NCBI RefSeq assembly: GCF_002909255.1
Contig: NZ_PIOB01000001.1
Span: forward strand, 1-64,000
Length of the DNA: 64,000 nucleotides
DNA from: Arenibacter hampyeongensis
GTDB taxonomy: Bacteria > Bacteroidota > Bacteroidia > Flavobacteriales > Flavobacteriaceae
Reading direction: 5' to 3'
Shown: positions 55,309-63,076 of the stretch, piece by piece
Numbering within the stretch: position 1 is the stretch's first letter
How the letters are laid out: every line of letters begins with the position of its first letter
Notes under the pieces: model-generated
The model's database searches: none
The model's input: only the letters and a program-made list of their open reading frames with translations
What the model was told of the DNA's origin: nothing
Position numbers and translations under genes: made by a program

Positions 55309-55500
55309 TTTGAAAGAATTGTTACGCTTCTAAAAAAGAATAACCTATATCATGGTATTAAAGATGATTGTGAAAATTATTCAATATAAGAATTAGAACA
55401 GTATCTTGAATTGATTTCAAAACATAATAGTATAGATAAAGGATACGAATCCCAATCATTTAAGACCTGTCAAAATATCGGACTATTTCAAAGCAAGAAA
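55309..55500 (+). pseudogene. Decayed ORF upstream of the toxin-antitoxin pair
   Basis: Coding-like sequence (LLKKNNLYHGIKDDCENY, then in the next frame ELEQYLELISKHNSIDKGYE) is broken by a frameshift near 55380 and a stop. It reads as the remains of one short gene. The family is not recognised and the call is tentative. Confidence 0.3.
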
Positions 55501-55502
55501 AG

Positions 55503-55517
55503 TGTATATTATATACA
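55503..55517. promoter_or_regulatory. Operator dyad of the toxin-antitoxin operon
   Basis: TGTATATTATATACA is a 15-bp palindrome around one central base. It lies 41 bp upstream of the antitoxin start. An exact TAnnTTTG -7 element (TATATTTG) is at 55532-55539. Autoregulation by the antitoxin, alone or with the toxin, is typical of such operons. Confidence 0.6.
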
Positions 55518-55557
55518 TAATATATTTATTGTATATTTGTTTAATAAAATATTGATC

Positions 55558-55809
55558 ATGAAAAAAAACATAGACATTGACGAAACAATTTTGACTAAAC
55601 TTAAAATCTTATCGGCATTCGAGAATATGAGCGTAAAGGCTCTTATGGAAAAGGCAGTATCATTTTTCGTGGAACAAAAGGAGAAAGAACGCTTAAATGC
55701 TCTTTCGGATGAAGAAAAAGAAGATTTAGGACTTCTCCTACTAATGCAACAAGTAGATAGAACTGAAACAGTGAGTAGAGAAGAAGTAATGAATGCCTTA
55801 GACGAATGA
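55558..55809 (+). CDS. Antitoxin of a RelE/ParE-type module
   Basis: An 83-residue acidic protein from the ATG at 55558. The N-terminus KNIDIDETILTKLKILSAFEN followed by MSVKALMEKAVSFFVEQKE looks like a ribbon-helix-helix DNA-binding domain (written here in parts). The C-terminal half is charged, as expected for the toxin-neutralising tail. The open frame extends upstream to 55411 but only through decayed sequence. Its stop overlaps the toxin start (ATGA). Confidence 0.82.
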   Translation: MKKNIDIDETILTKLKILSAFENMSVKALMEKAVSFFVEQKEKERLNALSDEEKEDLGLLLLMQQVDRTETVSREEVMNALDE

Positions 55810-56075
55810 AAGTTATCTTCCTAAAGAGTTTTCTTATTGACATTAAGAAAGTCAAGGACAAGGGACTAAAATCAAGAATAAAGAAATTGATTCTTGAAAT
55901 TGAAGCTGCCCAAAGTTTAGAAGAAATGACTGGCGTAAAAAAAATGAGGGGCTACTCCATAGCTTACCGAATAAGAATGGGCGATTATAGATTAGGACTG
56001 TATAAAGAAACCGATTGTGTCGAATTAGCAAGGTTTCTAAAACGCAATGAAATTTATAAAGTTTTTCCCAAGTAA
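55806..56075 (+). CDS. RelE/ParE-family toxin
   Basis: An 89-residue basic protein with the RelE/ParE pattern: KVIFLKSFLIDIKKVKDKG at the start, MTGVKKMRGYSIAYRIRMGDYR in the middle (core MRGYSIAYRIRMGDYRLG) and a final strand ELARFLKRNEIYKVFP. Relatives cut mRNA on the ribosome or poison gyrase. Translational overlap with the antitoxin supports the pairing. Confidence 0.88.
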   Translation: MKVIFLKSFLIDIKKVKDKGLKSRIKKLILEIEAAQSLEEMTGVKKMRGYSIAYRIRMGDYRLGLYKETDCVELARFLKRNEIYKVFPK

Positions 56076-56309: not shown

Positions 56310-56448
56310 TGAACGATGAATTGGATTCTGTGAGGAATCTACCCTGTCTTGCTTTCAAATTAAGGAAAAGAATACCGCTCACTTTCCCGCCTTTTAGTAA
56401 ATACATACAGAATTGAAAAAATCCGTTTCAAAAAAGCACGCTGAAAAT

Positions 56449-56482
56449 TAAAAAAGGCAGCTACATTTTCATGTTACTGCCT
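56449..56482 (-). terminator. Terminator downstream of the tRNA-Asn fragment
   Basis: AGGCAG and CTGCCT form a stem, and the A run at the left becomes a T run on the minus strand. It is placed as a terminator for the tRNA read on the minus strand. Confidence 0.7.
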
Positions 56483-56490
56483 GATTATTA

Positions 56491-56531
56491 AGCCCCTCTT
56501 GGGCTCGAACCAAGGACCCTCTGATTAACAG
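56491..56531 (-). other. tRNA-Asn 3' fragment, attachment site of an integrative element
   Basis: On the minus strand this reads as the anticodon loop of tRNA-Asn (CTGTTAAT, anticodon GTT), the variable region, an intact T-arm (CTTGG, loop TTCGAGC, CCAAG) and part of the acceptor stem. The 5' half is missing: sequence right of 56531 no longer matches a tRNA. This is what remains at one end when an element integrates into a tRNA gene with crossover at the anticodon loop. The integrase gene starts 150 bp to the right. Confidence 0.82.
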
Positions 56532-56680
56532 CCTCAAAAGTGGTGGTTTCATGTAACGTCATTTGTCTTCTTATAGTCTGATTATCAATATTTTATGAAA
56601 AATTGTTTTGTATTTGGTAATATAATTTTTACATTTAATAGCCCATTTGTTGTACCTATGTTGTACCCAAATCAAGTCAA

Positions 56681-57901
56681 ATGATAACTATTAAGATTGT
56701 TCAACGGAAGAAAAAATTAACTGATGGATTGTATCCCATCTTTTTGCGAATTACTAAAGATAGACAATCGAAATTTTATAAAACTCCGTTTAGCTCAACT
56801 ATTTCAGAATGGACAACCTCCACCGGCACATTTAATAAAAAGAAAAATAATCATTTTCAAAATAACAGATTGCTGGTAAAAATTAAAGATCGCGCTTATA
56901 AGATTGCCACTGACCTTGAAGTAGAAAATCCTGACTATACCTTGCAGGATTTCGATAAGCGATATAGAATTACTTTCAACCCTGTTAGTAATGATGTTTT
57001 TGCCTTTTTTGATGAGATCATTGAGGAGATGACGTTTGCAGGACGTATCGGAAATGCGAAGTCCTATAAAGATGCGAAAACTTCAATTCAAATTTTTCAT
57101 AAAATCAAGAAACTAAATTTTAGAGAGGTAAATTCTGCTTTTTTAAGTAAGTATGATGCCTTTCTTCGCTCCCGCGGTGGCACGGATGGTGGCGTCGGTG
57201 TAAAAATGCGTGCCATAAGGGCGTTGTTTAACAAAGCTATAGCGCGTGGTGTAATCAAGGAAAATCTATATCCATTTAAAACCTATAAAATATCAAGGCT
57301 AAGAGGCAAAGGTTTTAAACGTGCATTGGATTATGAAGAGATCATCCGTATTATCAATTTAGATTTGTCTGACCACCCACATTTAATCAATACCAGAAAT
57401 TACTTTGTTTTTAGCTTCTATACCAGGGGAATGAACTTTGCGGATATGATGTGCTTGGAATGGAAAGATGTTGAAGCTAATGTCATCTATTACACCAGAG
57501 CGAAGACCAAAGGAAACTTCTCTATAGCCATTATGCCCCCTGTTCAGAAAATATTGGATTATTATCGGATACATGGCTATGGCAACAAATATGTATTTCC
57601 CCTGTTGTTTCGCGAAGACTATACCCCTACCCAACTTGCAGATCGGAAACATAAAATGTTGGGCATTTACAATATAGAGCTAAAGGAAGTGGCCAAATTA
57701 TGCAATATCACCAAAAACGTAAGCAGTTATGTGGCCCGGCATAGTTTTGCTAACTGCCTTAAACAAAAAGGAGTGGCTACCGATGTCATTAGCGAATCCT
57801 TGGGGCACCAAAATCTAGGCGTTACCCAAGCTTATCTCAAAGAACTGGATACTGATATTGTGGACAAAGCACTTGAAGTGCTGTTACAACCATCAAGGTA
57901 A
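56681..57901 (+). CDS. Tyrosine recombinase (site-specific integrase)
   Basis: A 406-residue phage-type integrase of the Bacteroidota group. The N-terminal arm-binding domain (about 1-95) begins MITIKIVQRKKKLTDGLYPI; a SAM-like core-binding domain follows (about 100-205). Catalytic residues are visible: R249 (YTRGM), K275 or K277 (AKTKG), R353 (ARHSF), H376 (LGHQN) and the nucleophile Y385 (AYLKEL). The usual His of HxxR is Tyr350, as in many Bacteroidota integrases. Position beside a truncated tRNA-Asn indicates that it integrates the element there. Confidence 0.93.
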   Translation: MITIKIVQRKKKLTDGLYPIFLRITKDRQSKFYKTPFSSTISEWTTSTGTFNKKKNNHFQNNRLLVKIKDRAYKIATDLEVENPDYTLQDFDKRYRITFNPVSNDVFAFFDEIIEEMTFAGRIGNAKSYKDAKTSIQIFHKIKKLNFREVNSAFLSKYDAFLRSRGGTDGGVGVKMRAIRALFNKAIARGVIKENLYPFKTYKISRLRGKGFKRALDYEEIIRIINLDLSDHPHLINTRNYFVFSFYTRGMNFADMMCLEWKDVEANVIYYTRAKTKGNFSIAIMPPVQKILDYYRIHGYGNKYVFPLLFREDYTPTQLADRKHKMLGIYNIELKEVAKLCNITKNVSSYVARHSFANCLKQKGVATDVISESLGHQNLGVTQAYLKELDTDIVDKALEVLLQPSR

Positions 57902-57929
57902 ATAATCAGAATAAGTTCTCAGCTCATAT

Positions 57930-58037
57930 TTATTTCATTTTATGTGATTTAATGTTAATTTGTTGTGCTACAATTGGCAGACCTTTTTCCCAAATTAAAT
58001 CGTAAAATGCTTTTCTTGTAATTGCTTTAGTCCTCAT
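57930..58037 (-). pseudogene. Truncated N-terminus of a DNA-binding-like protein
   Basis: A 35-codon frame (MRTKAITRKAFYDLIWEKGL then PIVAQQINIK) resembles the start of the mobile-element proteins that open with R-E-L-Y-E-L-V-W-S-x-P and a helix-turn-helix. It stops early, where the family continues with a recognition helix, so it looks like a gene cut by deletion. Confidence 0.4.
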
Positions 58038-58316
58038 ATTCTATTTTCAATTAATTAGCTTTTTCATGTAACATGAAAATAGAGCAAAAATGAAAATGGA
58101 GGTAGTCGGGGAACAATGAAAAAGCAAATTTATTCTCGTAATTGTACAAGTCGAATGCACATTCTCAACTAACAAAAAATACCATACAACAGATATTATC
58201 GATCTTTATCGATTAAGCAAATACAAAAACCAATAATTGCTAACTTAGAAGGTTAGAATCAAATACTTGGTTGTAATATTCCCCCTCTTTACACCAGCGA
58301 AAATTTTATAGAATTA

Positions 58317-58358
58317 CAAGACTTCACACACATGTTAATGTGTTATAATGAAGTCTTG
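58317..58358. repeat. 42-bp inverted repeat upstream of the CBASS operon
   Basis: CAAGACTTCA (58317-58326) is matched by its exact complement (58349-58358). An inner dyad ACACAT/ATGTGT lies between. It could be a transcription terminator for sequence to either side, an operator, or part of a small RNA; no T run supports a terminator. Confidence 0.6.
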
Positions 58359-58666
58359 GTTACTTCAATAGATAGTCGGAAGTTATTATAGTATAAAGTT
58401 GCAAAACATTTTAATGAAACCAAAAAATTAAAAAAGTCAGTAGAAAGCTACTGAACAAAATTAAGTGGGGTACGGAAAACCGCAATGAAAATAAGAACTA
58501 ATTCTGGAAATTTGACACGCTAAAAATCTGCTAAAAGAATGGATGTATAGATACAAGTTACTATATCCTTCATTGTCAGTAAGGCAAAAAAACAATGAAA
58601 ATTGTTAAAATGTCAAAAATTTTAAACGGTTTAAAATTGTTAATTATTCATTAAAATCAATATTTC

Positions 58667-59692
58667 ATGGCCAATTTAAATTATTCCAGACGACTTCAGA
58701 ATTTACAAGACAGAAAATTTGACAGAGAACTAAATGAATCTTTAATTTCTAAATCTTTTAGTTCTAAAGATATTCCTGATAATGTAAAGTATTTAGTGGA
58801 ATCAATGCGACCAATTGATCAAAAATATGATGCGCGAACTTATGACGCTGCCGCAAGAGTGCAGAAGCACTTGGAAAGTGGATTTGATTTACATTTCAAA
58901 AGAGCATACGAAAATCAGGGGTCTGTTATGACAAAAACTAACATTAAAGTTCATAGCGATTTTGATCTTTTAACAATTGTAGAGGGCTACTACTATTCAG
59001 AAAATCCAGATCCTGCAAACTCTTATATAAGGTCCAATCCGAATGACGATATAATTGAACTTAGACAACAGGCTTTAAAAATATTAAAAAACATATATGA
59101 CGAGGTAGATGATAAAGGAGAAAAAAGTATATCAATTTTTAATAAATCATTAAATAGAAAAGTAGATATTGTCTTTTGCTTTTGGTTCCACTCTGATAAA
59201 TATAAGGAGACTAACAATAAATTTTATAAAGGTGTCTATTTATTCAAATTCCCTACCAAAATAAAGAAAAAGGATTTCCCCTTTGCAACAATCACAAACG
59301 TCAATAATAAAGGTGACCGAACGGAAGATGGTTCGCGAAGAGGAATAAGGCTTCTGAAAAACTTAAAAGCTGATTCAGACCCTAAAATTAAATTATCTAG
59401 TTTTCAGTTAACTTCTATAGTGCACGCTATTGATGATAACCTAATTAACTATTCAGCAGGTGAAGAATTGAAAATAGCACAGGCTATATCGGGAGAATTA
59501 CAGATGCTAATTAATGATGGTTTTTATCGCAAAAGAATAAAAAGTCCTAATGGATTGGAAAATCCACTTGAAAATGAAGGTGTTGTATCTGAGCTGAGAA
59601 AATTAAAAGTAGACTTAGATGCCCTTATTGAGGACTCTGCAAGAGAAATATTAAGTAGTTCTATTATTAAAAAAGCAATTCTAACATATTAA
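58667..59692 (+). CDS. CD-NTase (cGAS/DncV-like nucleotidyltransferase), CdnE-like, of a CBASS system
   Basis: A 341-residue nucleotidyltransferase-fold protein. The active-site pattern is present: G85-S86 in QGSVMTKT, the metal-binding pair D98/D100 in VHSDFDLL and the third acid D167 in NRKVDIVFCFW. The C-terminal helical part (about 230-341) completes the fold. In CBASS, phage infection activates such an enzyme to make a cyclic nucleotide that triggers a cell-killing effector. The effector gene follows 4 bp downstream and carries a STING domain; bacterial STING systems described so far use c-di-GMP, so that is the expected product. No Cap2/Cap3 genes are next to it, which indicates a minimal type I CBASS. 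Confidence 0.85.
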   Translation: MANLNYSRRLQNLQDRKFDRELNESLISKSFSSKDIPDNVKYLVESMRPIDQKYDARTYDAAARVQKHLESGFDLHFKRAYENQGSVMTKTNIKVHSDFDLLTIVEGYYYSENPDPANSYIRSNPNDDIIELRQQALKILKNIYDEVDDKGEKSISIFNKSLNRKVDIVFCFWFHSDKYKETNNKFYKGVYLFKFPTKIKKKDFPFATITNVNNKGDRTEDGSRRGIRLLKNLKADSDPKIKLSSFQLTSIVHAIDDNLINYSAGEELKIAQAISGELQMLINDGFYRKRIKSPNGLENPLENEGVVSELRKLKVDLDALIEDSAREILSSSIIKKAILTY

Positions 59693-59696
59693 TAAA

Positions 59697-60632
59697 ATGA
59701 CTGACTTAAAACCTAAAATCTTTATTGGATCTTCTGGAGCAGGAATTCCGGTTGCGAAAAAAGTCAAGAGATATCTTTCGAGTGTAGGTGATTGTTTTCT
59801 CTGGCAAGATCCAAATATGTGGGAGACAAATAATAGCACATTCGACAGCTTATTAAAAATGGCTTCACATTTCGATTTTGGAGTTTTTGTAGCCACAGCT
59901 GATGATCTAACTTTAACTAAAGATAAAATCGTAATAGAGCCTCGAGATAATGTCATTTTAGAAATGGCACTTTTTTTAGGAGCGATGGGAAGACATAAAT
60001 CTTTTTTATTAGTTGAAGACGGCATAAAACTACCCTCAGATTTTAGTGGAATTTATATGCCACGTTTTAAAAGTGAAGATAAAAAGACGATAAAAGCTGG
60101 TTGTGAAGAATTTAAGTCAAAAATAGAAGAACATTATAGATTAGGGCATTTAAGTTTATATCCTACAACAGCCTTGGCAATAGGATATTTTAAAAATTTT
60201 GTACAAGGATTAGTGAACGGAGCAAAAAATTCAGAACCATTAACCATAAATAATATAAAATATTCAGACTTCAAATTAAAAATAGTCATTCCAAAAGATT
60301 TAAAAGGTAAGATTAAAGAGAAGGCTTCTTTGTTCTATGAAAGACATGGTTTTGAAGAAAACGCCTTAAAAACCGAATTCAGAAAACATCCAGCTTGGTT
60401 CCAATTAGACCCCACTAAGGCACCAACAGCTGTTCTTTATGATATGCCAACTACATTGACAGGAATCGATGATGCTATCGAATTAATCTTGGGGAAAAGT
60501 TACAAGGGCAGAACAAAACTTCAAGAAGTTGTTGAACAAAGAGAGCTAAACAATTTTAGAAGGGTTCTACAAATGCAAATTGATGAAAGTCCTTATGCTC
60601 AGGCTACTGTTGAGATTATAGATGAATATTGA
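59697..60632 (+). CDS. TIR-STING effector of a CBASS system
   Basis: A 311-residue two-domain protein. Residues about 6-145 form a TIR-like predicted nucleotide-binding domain (KIFIGSSGAGIPVA; RDNVILEMALFLG with the probable catalytic E89). Residues about 152-311 look like a bacterial STING domain: TTALAIGYFKNFVQGL opens it, and TAVLYDMPTTLTGIDDAIE matches in position and pattern the human segment around Thr263/Pro264 that contacts the ligand. No membrane helices are present, so it is soluble, unlike animal STING. In known TIR-STING proteins, c-di-GMP binding drives filament formation and NAD+ cleavage. It is paired with the CD-NTase 4 bp upstream. Confidence 0.85.
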   Translation: MTDLKPKIFIGSSGAGIPVAKKVKRYLSSVGDCFLWQDPNMWETNNSTFDSLLKMASHFDFGVFVATADDLTLTKDKIVIEPRDNVILEMALFLGAMGRHKSFLLVEDGIKLPSDFSGIYMPRFKSEDKKTIKAGCEEFKSKIEEHYRLGHLSLYPTTALAIGYFKNFVQGLVNGAKNSEPLTINNIKYSDFKLKIVIPKDLKGKIKEKASLFYERHGFEENALKTEFRKHPAWFQLDPTKAPTAVLYDMPTTLTGIDDAIELILGKSYKGRTKLQEVVEQRELNNFRRVLQMQIDESPYAQATVEIIDEY

Positions 60633-60797
60633 TAATTCAAAATAACCCAACTGCCAACTCATTATAAGATATGGCTTGGTCAGTACGCACTTGGAAAATC
60701 CTACGGCTTTTCCAAAGCTAGTTTTTATCTGGAGAGGCTAGAGTAGAGACACATCACTGCTCATATACAAACAAGTTGTCAATAAAATCAATCACCT

Positions 60798-61139
60798 ATG
60801 ACTGATGAAACTAAAAAATGTCCATTTTGTGCTGAAGAAATCAGAAAAGAGGCTATAAAATGTAAATTCTGTGGTGAGATACTAGACCCTCAGTTAAAAA
60901 AGAATCGTGAAATTGAACGGCAACGCTTGCAACCAAAAATTAAGAAATGGAGTCCTGGTATAGCAGCACTTCTTAGTTTTATTATACCGGGGGCTGGACA
61001 AATGTATAAAGGAAATGTGGGCTCTGGTTTATTATGGTTAGTATTTGTAGTAATAGGCTATGCCTTCTTATTAGTGCCAGGACTATTTTTACATCTTATT
61101 TGTATAATTGCAGCAACTGTTGGTGATCCTTATGAATAG
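60798..61139 (+). CDS. Small zinc-ribbon membrane protein
   Basis: A 113-residue protein. The N-terminus is a zinc ribbon with two C-x2-C pairs (KKCPFCAEEIRKEAIKCKFC). A linker of about 25 residues leads to a TM2-like hydrophobic pair: GIAALLSFIIPGAGQMYKGN and a helix LLWLVFVVIGYAFLLVPGLF. The PGAGQ-Y-G turn is typical of TM2-domain proteins. Function unknown; it may be cargo or a membrane anchor in the island. Confidence 0.82.
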   Translation: MTDETKKCPFCAEEIRKEAIKCKFCGEILDPQLKKNREIERQRLQPKIKKWSPGIAALLSFIIPGAGQMYKGNVGSGLLWLVFVVIGYAFLLVPGLFLHLICIIAATVGDPYE

Positions 61140-61342
61140 TTTATAGGCTTTAATACACCTTTATAGAATTTTTGCTAAAACAATATTGCACTCAAAGGTT
61201 TGTGAAAGGTTTATTACCGGTTTTCGAAGGACATATCCGTCCAAATTAAAGACAAAAAAGAAAAGAAGGATTAACCCATTTTAAGCGTATTTCATGAGTA
61301 ACATACAAACAGTTGGCATTCACTAAAAAACTTAAAAAATAA

Positions 61343-62254
61343 ATGGCATTATTCAAAATAGAAAAATCATTAGAGTATATAAAAGAAAAACCTTTCCGAC
61401 TTGAAAAGGAAATTCAATACATGACAGAAAGTAATCTAAAGACAATTCTCGGACTCGACTTTGTAAAATCTGAATTTGCCTTAAACAATTTTCGAATTGA
61501 TACACTTGCTTTTGACAAGGAGGCAAATGCTTTTGTAATAATTGAATACAAAAGAGATAAAAATTACAGTGTAATTGATCAAGGATATGCCTACCTATCC
61601 TTAATGCTAAATAATAAAGCCGACTTTATTTTGGAATTTAATGAAAATCTTGACAAAACACTAAAACGGAATGATGTAGATTGGTCACAATCACGAGTTA
61701 TTTTTGTGTCACCTGCATTTACAAACTATCAGCGTGAAGCGATAAATTTTAAGGACTTGCCAATTGAACTTTGGGAGGTGAAAAGGTTTGAAAACAATAC
61801 CGTGTCATTCGAACAAATTCAAAAAGCAGGTGCACAAGAAAGTATAAAAACAATTTCCAAAACAGACCAAACAATTGATTCAGTTACCAAAGAAATTAAA
61901 GTGTACTCAGAACAAGAACATTTGGATAATGTAACTGAAGAAATAAAGGAGCTTTACGAAAAATTGAGAAGTGCAATTCTGAATCTCGACAACATTGAAG
62001 TAAAACCTAAAAAGAAATATATCGCATTTGTTTCAGGACGCAATGTAATTGATATTAACCCACAACGAAAAGCTTTGAAATTATGGTTGAATCTGAATAT
62101 TGGTGAACTTGATGACCCAAAGAATTTAATGAGAGACGTTTCAACAACAGGTCATTGGGGAAATGGTGATTATGAATTGCAGATTAATTCAGACGAAGAC
62201 TTGGAATATATTTTAAGCTTGGTGAAGCAATCGATTAAAAAGAATAAAAAATAA
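61343..62254 (+). CDS. PD-(D/E)xK nuclease-like protein with DUF5655 C-terminus
   Basis: A 303-residue protein. The N-terminal ~165 residues resemble NucS/DUF91-type nuclease domains: E44, D53 (FRIDTLAF), E68-x-K70 (VIIEYKRD) and Q80 (DQGYAYL) give the PD-(D/E)xK pattern. The C-terminal ~95 residues fit DUF5655 (FVSGRNVIDINPQRKALKLW core, then TGHWGNGDYELQI). Such proteins are common in islands and are candidates for DNA-targeting defence, though many are uncharacterised. It is preceded and followed by short intergenic stretches, suggesting a single-gene cassette. Confidence 0.82.
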   Translation: MALFKIEKSLEYIKEKPFRLEKEIQYMTESNLKTILGLDFVKSEFALNNFRIDTLAFDKEANAFVIIEYKRDKNYSVIDQGYAYLSLMLNNKADFILEFNENLDKTLKRNDVDWSQSRVIFVSPAFTNYQREAINFKDLPIELWEVKRFENNTVSFEQIQKAGAQESIKTISKTDQTIDSVTKEIKVYSEQEHLDNVTEEIKELYEKLRSAILNLDNIEVKPKKKYIAFVSGRNVIDINPQRKALKLWLNLNIGELDDPKNLMRDVSTTGHWGNGDYELQINSDEDLEYILSLVKQSIKKNKK

Positions 62255-62308
62255 CGAATTTGCAACAAGAACTGTAGTGCAATAACTTCGGGTTATGATA
62301 TAGTCTAA

Positions 62309-63076
62309 ATGTTAAACCCATTAAAGCCCATGATAGAAAAAATTAGAACATTAATTGACGATAACACCACCAGGAGTGGGAAAATATTTGATTATTTCAT
62401 TCAGTTTCTAATTCTTATCTCATTAATATCTTTCTCTGTAGAGACACTCCCCAATAACAGCGCAAATACAATACGTATTCTCAACCTAATTGAAATAAGC
62501 TGCGTGGTGATATTTTCTGCTGAGTATTTGTTACGAATTTTTGTTGCTAAAAACCCGCTTAAATACATTTTCAGTTTTTATGGTATAATTGATTTACTAG
62601 CAATTTTACCATTTTATTTGAGAGCTGCTATTGATTTAAGGGCGCTGCGAGCTTTCCGTATTTTTAGAATATTTCGAGCCTTAAAATTGATTCGATACAA
62701 TAAAGCATTAAAACGGTTTCACATTGCAGCAGGCATAGTTAAAGAAGAAATAATCCTGTTCTTTATGGTAACATCAATTTTAATATTCTTGTCGGCCTCG
62801 GGAATCTATTTCCTTGAAAATGAGGAACAACCTGAAGTTTTTAGTTCAATTTTTCATAGCCTATGGTGGGCGGTCGTAACACTTACCACTGTAGGTTATG
62901 GTGATGTGTTGCCGATGACCACGGGCGGAAGAATATTCACATTCTTTGTTCTAATAATTGGCATAGGAATAGTAACAGTGCCAGCTGGACTTGTTGCTAC
63001 AGCACTCACAAAAGCTAGACAAATCGAGGAGGAAGAAAGACAAGAGAAAATTGAAAAGGTGCGAAATAATTATTAA
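62309..63076 (+). CDS. Voltage-gated-type potassium channel
   Basis: A 255-residue six-helix channel. Segments S1-S3 lie at about 28-105; the S4 voltage sensor shows an Arg every third residue (R111, R114, R117, R120, R123) in LRALRAFRIFRIFRALKLIR (core RAFRIFRIFRALK). The pore helix is followed by the selectivity filter TTVGYGD (193-199). The C-terminus is a short charged helix. It should assemble as a tetramer and pass K+. No RCK domain is present. Its place in a defence-bearing island is notable but no direct link is shown. Confidence 0.92.
   Translation: MLNPLKPMIEKIRTLIDDNTTRSGKIFDYFIQFLILISLISFSVETLPNNSANTIRILNLIEISCVVIFSAEYLLRIFVAKNPLKYIFSFYGIIDLLAILPFYLRAAIDLRALRAFRIFRIFRALKLIRYNKALKRFHIAAGIVKEEIILFFMVTSILIFLSASGIYFLENEEQPEVFSSIFHSLWWAVVTLTTVGYGDVLPMTTGGRIFTFFVLIIGIGIVTVPAGLVATALTKARQIEEEERQEKIEKVRNNY

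Follow-up and report, generated by a model that had tools for sequence, protein, structure and literature searches.

A predicted minimal type I CBASS with a TIR-STING effector on a tRNA-Asn island of Arenibacter hampyeongensis, and a non-coding leader shared within the genus

The operon and its two proteins

We analysed a stretch of 64,000 nucleotides from Arenibacter hampyeongensis (Flavobacteriaceae; contig NZ_PIOB01000001.1, positions 1 to 64,000; the window), and in particular an operon at positions 58667-60632. Two intact open reading frames (ORFs) lie there on the forward strand with 4 bp between the first stop and the second start, as a first-pass annotation of the sequence had described them. 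The first encodes a CdnE-like CD-NTase with the GS...D-x-D...D active site and the second, beside it, a TIR-STING effector (Cap12). As judged from sequence, the pair is a minimal type I cyclic oligonucleotide-based antiphage signaling system (CBASS) of a kind already known. Neither Cap2/Cap3 nor HORMA/TRIP13 ancillary genes adjoin the operon, whose neighbours encode an integrase, a zinc-ribbon protein, PDC-S18 and an ion channel (Table 1). The first-pass annotation had proposed a CD-NTase and TIR-STING CBASS on an integrative element; this proposal is supported in every part tested.

No Pfam family matched the cyclase above its cut-off. The best oligonucleotide-cyclase model in PADLOC was Cyclase PDLC00807 (expectation value, E, 3.7e-139), and the closest solved relatives by sequence were 6wt9 (E 8.8e-32) and 6wt8, the CdnE proteins of Capnocytophaga granulosa and of a Flavobacteriaceae species, both STING-associated c-di-GMP synthases by entry title. 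The active site recognised in the first reading is well conserved: among 36 aligned cyclases (alignment A5), Q84-G85-S86, D98 and D100 were invariant and D167 nearly so, with Glu at the third triad position in locus L005. An AlphaFold model of the cyclase (mean predicted local distance difference test, pLDDT, 90.5; 36 sequences) matched 6wt9 (CgCdnE) at template-modelling (TM) scores of 0.80/0.90 and also matched 6wt8; these are its nearest folds, and when aligned by fold they share 28% and 25% identity with it. Both models reported here are of monomers and were built from the window and fetched-locus sequences alone.

The second protein matched the Pfam families prok_STING (E 3.4e-38) and CAP12-PCTIR_TIR (E 2.4e-25), both above cut-off, which agrees with the TIR-like NADase-type and STING domains first read from its sequence. 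It also matched the PADLOC TIR effector model PDLC00729 (E 6e-117). Its best solved relatives by sequence were 9lmq (ElSTING, E 9.1e-68) and 7un8 (SfSTING, E 8.9e-40), and its AlphaFold model (pLDDT 83.3; 46 sequences) matched 9lmq at TM 0.87; the match to human STING was weak (best E 4.6e-5, TM 0.33 by query length). Residues W36, E89, D115, R229 and D249 were invariant in the 46 STINGs of alignment A4. Beyond that alignment, the position of R229 is a gap in L084, and the STING of a same-genus genome (G734) aligns no Arg there.

Characterised homologues give these residues predicted roles. E89 aligns with E86 of ElSTING, a catalytic residue (PMC12421889), and with E84 of SfSTING; D115 aligns with SfSTING D110, which comes from the neighbouring protomer and completes the active site with E84 (PMC9402430). 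R229 and D249 align with ElSTING R230 and D251, and the segment D249-M-P-T-T253, in which the first reading had noticed a PTT motif, aligns with ElSTING D251-T255. In MySTING, R230 and D251 are guanine-reading contacts (PMC8748872). By sequence, the effector thus combines the catalytic-Glu TIR domain fused to a STING domain that is expected of Cap12 with the guanine-contact Arg and Asp expected of a c-di-GMP receptor.

The closest characterised system is ElCdnE-ElSTING of Epilithonimonas lactis (9lmq, 9lmr), a two-gene operon with the same domain order (PMC12421889), the same catalytic Glu and the same guanine-contact residues. It differs in identity (39-40% for STING, 27% for the cyclase), in its R-x-F lid where the window protein has R-x-H, and in its cyclase, which best matches PDLC00784. 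SfSTING of Sphingobacterium faecium is a filament-forming TIR-STING NADase (PMC9402430), to which the window protein is likened from its sequence. They share about 29% identity in the fold alignment, and the SfSTING lid is R-G-F. Entries 7ebd and 7ebl we take to be PcSTING and MySTING. These two proteins, from Prevotella corporis and Myroides, belong to lid class I and share the STING fold and the Arg and Asp guanine contacts (PMC8748872), but have a stacking Tyr where the window has His, and a lid order of Y-x-x-H rather than H-x-x-W.

Table 1. Features of the operon and its surroundings, in window coordinates
Feature	Position	Strand	Evidence
Left attachment repeat, 39-bp copy of the tRNA-Asn 3' half, island end	56493..56531	-	perfect direct repeat
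Tyrosine recombinase (integrase) of the island	56681..57901	+	Pfam; 86% identical copy in the same place in G733
Conserved non-coding leader core	58186..58315	+	same-genus matches; nhmmer E 6.2e-33
Imperfect hairpin, 10-bp arms and inner stem, directly after the leader core	58317..58358	.	DNA fold of 58290-58400, z -3.09
CD-NTase (CdnE-like cyclase), 341 aa	58667..59692	+	PADLOC; model vs 6wt9/6wt8; triad D98, D100, D167
TIR-STING effector (Cap12), 311 aa	59697..60632	+	Pfam prok_STING and CAP12-PCTIR_TIR; PADLOC; model vs 9lmq
TIR domain, residues 7-125 (E89 at 59961-59963)	59715..60071	+	Pfam PF10137; E89 invariant in 46 sequences
STING domain, residues 156-292	60162..60572	+	Pfam PF20300, full profile 1-137
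Lid motif R229-K-H231-P-A-W234	60381..60398	+	His/Trp counts in the near-clade vs others
Small zinc-ribbon/membrane protein, cargo	60798..61139	+	sub-threshold Zn_ribbon_3 and TM2 matches
Candidate defence gene PDC-S18 (DUF5655), cargo	61343..62254	+	PADLOC E 1.7e-143; Pfam DUF5655
Potassium-channel-like protein, cargo	62309..63076	+	Pfam Ion_trans E 8.3e-38

The STING lid, its cyclase partners and the predicted ligand

Bacterial STING lids have been divided into two classes, Rx(Y/F) and RxR, set by the second residue after the lid Arg (PMC8748872; PMC10739871). In the window STING this residue is His231, which fits neither class. Lids were compared across 65 STING rows: that of the window plus 64 from a set of 79 loci (L085 and L087-L100, TIR-only or partial, were left out). 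The loci came from an alignment-profile search of genome contigs, as the best 80 of 88 matches; the same contigs searched with the window STING as a single protein gave no loci. Seventeen rows, the window included, are at least 65% identical to the window STING (the near-clade). In a 39-row tree they group together (support 100/100), set apart by a branch length of 1.42. Within it the second residue is His in 14 of 16 distinct sequences, with Gln in L035 and Tyr in L039. Among the other 41 distinct sequences His is absent, and the position holds Tyr (23), Phe (14), or Arg, Ile, Leu or a gap (one each). A Trp three residues after the lid His position was found in 17/17 near-clade rows vs 1/48 of the others. 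Because the near-clade is a single branch, the RxH lid points to one or a few events rather than many independent ones. The STING of the same-genus genome G733, outside this count, has an R-x-H lid too.

By alignment, the R-x-H...W lid of this sub-clade lies outside both published classes. No mention of an RxH lid was found in the literature searched; PMC10739871 cites another study as reporting STINGs that lack the known motifs and have no known ligand, and RxH could be among them. That the lid signature is set by the cyclase was considered and rejected, since the lid follows the STING lineage. A near-fixed His where published lids have Tyr/Phe or Arg provides a natural test of the cyclic-dinucleotide specificity of STING. 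Proximity to an integrase does not characterise the near-clade: a profile of the window integrase, searched near the other near-clade operons (L024-L039), found one at L029 alone, about 7 kb upstream. Three STING loci in Firmicutes metagenome-assembled genomes (MAGs; L058, L060, L061) have the motifs seen in gut Bacteroidales STINGs and are probably mis-binned, and an Ignavibacteria MAG locus (L026), 93% and 95% like Aquiflexum L024, may be so as well; for this reason we make no claim of inter-phylum transfer.

The partners of these receptors vary. L037 and L030 have STINGs that are 83% identical and cyclases that are 30% identical. The cyclases beside the near-clade RxH STINGs of L030 and L033 best match PDLC00784, as does ElCdnE, and that of L032 is 84% identical to the L030 cyclase, hence of the same kind. 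Conversely, L040 and L071 have R-x-Y lids and STINGs that are 43% and 35% like that of the window, next to cyclases that are 54% and 50% like the window cyclase. On these identities, cyclase and receptor have been re-paired. It has been reported that c-di-GMP is the sole product of ElCdnE among those tested (PMC12421889). Since His lids adjoin ElCdnE-like cyclases and Tyr lids adjoin cyclases of the window type, c-di-GMP is the ligand that requires the fewest assumptions, and the partner swaps suggest that the window STING binds it.

We consider it very likely that this tRNA-Asn island of 34.9 kb carries a minimal type I CBASS in which c-di-GMP leads to STING filaments and NADase activity; product, ligand, filament and abortive infection are proposed by analogy with the characterised homologues. 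A phage cue would switch on the CdnE-like cyclase, which would make 3'3'-c-di-GMP. The beta-strand lid of two TIR-STING protomers would close over the ligand, with the Hoogsteen edge of guanine contacted by R229, its N2 by D249, and F168 and H231 as stacking faces. Closed STING dimers would stack into filaments, in which the TIR domains are expected to form composite NADase sites from E89 and the D115 of a neighbour, depleting NAD+ and stopping the infected cell.

The source of c-di-GMP also bears on this reading. No GGDEF match was found in the organism's own genome, so that no canonical c-di-GMP pool is expected to trigger the receptor. Several observations weigh on the other side. The idea that STING carriers are distinguished by a lack of GGDEF had to be rejected: matches occurred in 9 of 395 class-sample genomes, with none of the 16 STING carriers of that sample among the nine, and in 2/16 STING genomes vs 203/395 overall in the phylum sample, which reflects class-wide scarcity and a taxonomic contrast within the phylum. 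The genome of a near-clade relative (G023, holding L002/L026) has one GGDEF match. The Tyr-lidded near-clade member L039 lies beside a quite different cyclase (PDLC00774), and given that partner some members of the near-clade may read another nucleotide. The NCBIfam Cap12 equivalogs NF050172 and NF050171 matched the effector below cut-off (314.4 and 184 of 450 bits), which by sequence places it outside NCBI's named Cap12 equivalogs and within the broader Pfam/PADLOC family. Finally, H231 departs from Rx(Y/F), and a Tyr to Arg change in the MySTING lid caused a nearly 1200-fold loss of c-di-GMP binding (PMC8748872), so that a different or weaker ligand is conceivable.

The RxH STING might accordingly bind another cyclic dinucleotide made by its cyclase (3'3'-cGAMP, c-di-AMP or one containing a pyrimidine). 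Such a ligand would accord with the position of H231 outside both published lid classes (PMC10739871, PMC8748872), with the branch that separates the clade and with the motif-less STINGs reported by another study (via PMC10739871), but we regard it as rather improbable: the guanine-specific contacts R229 and D249 are invariant in A4, the cyclase fold is closest to two solved c-di-GMP synthases, RxH STINGs are partnered with ElCdnE-like cyclases, and cyclases of the window type occur elsewhere beside Y-lid or GRPR-lid STINGs. It is very unlikely that the operon is decayed or silent cargo, even though unrelated cargo also rides on the island, since both frames are intact with their catalytic and ligand residues in place and the operon in the same slot of G733 is open too. 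Several prok_STING genes of the phylum sample have no cyclase ORF recognised by eye within about 1.5 kb on each side, as might be expected if such genes answered a non-phage host signal, for example in regulating the island or the NAD+ pool. We give that role only a slight chance here, because the operon shares its island with a type I restriction-modification (RM) system and the candidates PDC-S18, PDC-S23 and PDC-S26, and because the characterised homologues are anti-phage (PMC12421889, PMC9402430).

The integrative island and its relatives in the genus

The integrase (Pfam Phage_integrase, E 3.4e-12, with Arm-DNA-bind_5 and Phage_int_SAM_5) starts 150 bp inside the left repeat. The partner of this 39-bp repeat, without mismatch, was found at G000:C1:91423-91461 (G000 being the organism's own genome), inside an intact tRNA-Asn at 91419-91493; the two repeats have the same orientation and lie 34,930 bp apart. 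In another genome of the genus (G742, L123), DNA that is 93% identical to the left flank of the window from 55439 continues directly into an intact tRNA-Asn, which shows the site without an insertion. DNA like the right end of the island (more than 400 aligned bp) lies beside the same tRNA in 6 of 17 same-genus relatives (L118, L120, L121, L122, L125, L127), and the GC content of the island is 35.0% vs 38.7% and 40.1% in the flanks. With an integrase, repeats that include an intact tRNA and an empty site in a relative, this is a tRNA-integrated mobile island, which bears out the earlier suggestion that the operon is horizontally mobile and sits behind an integrase; the gap between integrase and cyclase is 765 bp and holds the leader described below. 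The exact island ends, the lid residue and the leader go beyond what the first-pass annotation saw, and the leader lies outside the coordinates that it covered.

The island also carries a type I RM system (HsdM, HsdS, HsdR), the PDC-S26 and PDC-S23 candidates and a staphylococcal-nuclease-like gene. Neither a relaxase nor a conjugation apparatus was recognised among the part of the island ORFs scanned with Pfam and PADLOC. Carriage by a phage or plasmid was considered and rejected: viral contigs and phage records held no relative, and 34 plasmid records gave partial matches, none covering 80% of the query, with those listed falling mainly in the TIR part. Just outside the island, at 55411-56075, lies a gene pair like the RelB/ParE toxin-antitoxin (sub-threshold Pfam matches); the stretch from 55439, within this pair, is also found beside tRNA-Asn in G742.

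A prok_STING match was present in 8/18 genomes of the genus, the organism's own included, in 16/395 of the phylum sample and in 16/395 of the class sample. TIR-STING CBASS is established, as had been noted, and the window copy is an added member; the description of such systems as rare was overstated, since they are uncommon but not exceptional. The suggestion that this copy informs the origin of animal STING was not borne out: it says little on the matter, as published trees place a long branch between animal and bacterial STINGs (PMC10732462).

Other combinations of cyclase and STING occur in the genus. In G733 the same repeats enclose an island of 29,084 bp, in which an 86% identical integrase is followed by leader, cyclase and STING. 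Relative to the window, its cyclase is 33% identical over 242 aligned residues and its STING 70% identical, and the pair is 93% and 96% identical to that of a Winogradskyella MAG (L030), so replacement of the complete operon is possible. G734 shares 8.2 kb with the window island at 86% identity, at the right end next to tRNA-Asn. About 41 kb further on the same contig lie the leader, a 60% identical cyclase and a 29% identical TIR-STING with a GRPR lid; with a single repeat before the contig end, location of this operon in the same island is likely but not shown. In G732 almost the same pair occurs as in G734, with the tRNA-Asn locus on another contig. By these comparisons, cyclase and STING occur in other combinations within the genus, partly in the same island slot. 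We do not claim their re-pairing as new; natural re-pairings within one genus do test whether the cyclase product or the receptor lid limits which halves work together.

Several other STING arrangements were observed. Other STING types in the same genus (L147-L150) are open frames of about 230 aa in G742, G743 and G740 and of 440 aa in G735, a genome with the contig sequence of NZ_QJJZ01000004.1 from Arenibacter sp. ARW7G5Y1 (L101, L150, L159). L045:7441-9951 and L047:8366-9960 are CBASS-like operons with an E2-like protein before TIR-STING (PADLOC E2, E 5.4e-54 and 6.3e-54); the L045 cyclase matches PDLC00774, and L047 and L084 share the layout of L045. The prok_STING proteins of L009-L012 and L015-L017 had no cyclase ORF by eye in about 1.5 kb on each side (less in L017), and L009 and L010, from one genus, have a similar gene of 161-164 aa before the prok_STING gene. 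L014:793-2100 encodes a TIR-STING of 435 aa, longer than usual, and its upstream gene is deaminase-like by eye and not CD-NTase-like.

A non-coding leader shared within the genus

The leader between integrase and cyclase is the most original lead of this analysis and its least explained part. With 58165-58316 as query (E up to 1e-5), we found at least 58 matches in at least 13 of the 18 genus genomes, at least eight of them in the organism's own genome. Conservation is strong over about 130 bp and then fades, for an overall length of about 130-200 bp. Listed copies run the same way on 13 of the 14 contigs with at least two copies, G000:C1 being the exception. An nhmmer search of 1.6 Mb of sequence that included other genera found the leader in the window, G732, G733 and G734 alone, and a narrow literature search gave no description of it.

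We examined 30 leader loci (for L169 we used the neighbouring copy, which is also that of L180) and took as downstream ORF the longest one on the same strand that encodes 100 aa or more and begins no further than 750 bp from the leader. Such an ORF was present in 26/30. The distance from core to ATG was 84-154 bp in 18 of these; the remaining eight depart from that spacing, including the window (350 bp) and G734 (295 bp). The distance to the upstream gene varied widely. CBASS operons follow the leader in 4/26 cases (L164, L168, L179, L190). Twenty of the other 22 downstream ORFs were scanned with PADLOC (L178 and L192 were left out), and half of them (10/20) matched at 1e-5 and half did not. 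The matches were to caspase, dGTPase, PDC-S60, AriA, PDC-S06, HNH, Avs2 and HamA models, with weak ones to PDC-M28B and a TIR effector. As a control, we took the 20 ORFs of 200 aa or longer from 40 kb of the organism's own chromosome and scanned a random ten of them (seed 1), which gave 0/10 matches. Because the control is small, its minimum length longer and the PADLOC library includes unproven candidates, the enrichment of defence genes after the leader is suggestive.

Nine further genes near leader copies were chosen by hand, of which four matched PADLOC: type I methyltransferase and restriction subunits (G000:C28), an MkoA-like protein (G000:C1) and PDC-S06 (G743:C22). The five that did not include genes directly after leader copies at G000:C28 and G743:C22. 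G743:C22 has three successive copies, spaced 1.5 and 1.8 kb apart, and each interval holds a single gene.

A structured RNA was considered and rejected: RNAalifold on 29 copies gave no shared pairs, and Rfam had no match in 56400-62400. An integron attC site was likewise rejected. The 84-154 bp to the downstream ATG, more regular (with 8/26 off) than the variable distance to the upstream gene, fits better with a leader of the following gene. A frame stays open over part of the core but is broken by an insertion or stops in some copies, which makes a coding remnant unlikely. Our guess is that the element is a shared promoter or regulatory leader and, as a second choice, a recombination site. 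More tentatively, we propose that the defence operons of the genus are interchangeable units behind the leader, which either marks and co-regulates them as a regulon or is where they recombine, that the TIR-STING CBASS is one such unit, with its cyclase and receptor halves exchanged as well, and that RxH is a third lid class; we hold this combined view to be possible and somewhat doubtful. If the leader is regulatory, it would be direct evidence of a common Bacteroidota defence regulon comprising CBASS, Hachiman HamA, Avs2-like, AriA-like, caspase-like and dGTPase genes and candidates. The pattern of the hairpin directly after the leader core (up to three mismatches) was found in two of the 18 same-genus genomes, that of the window and G734.

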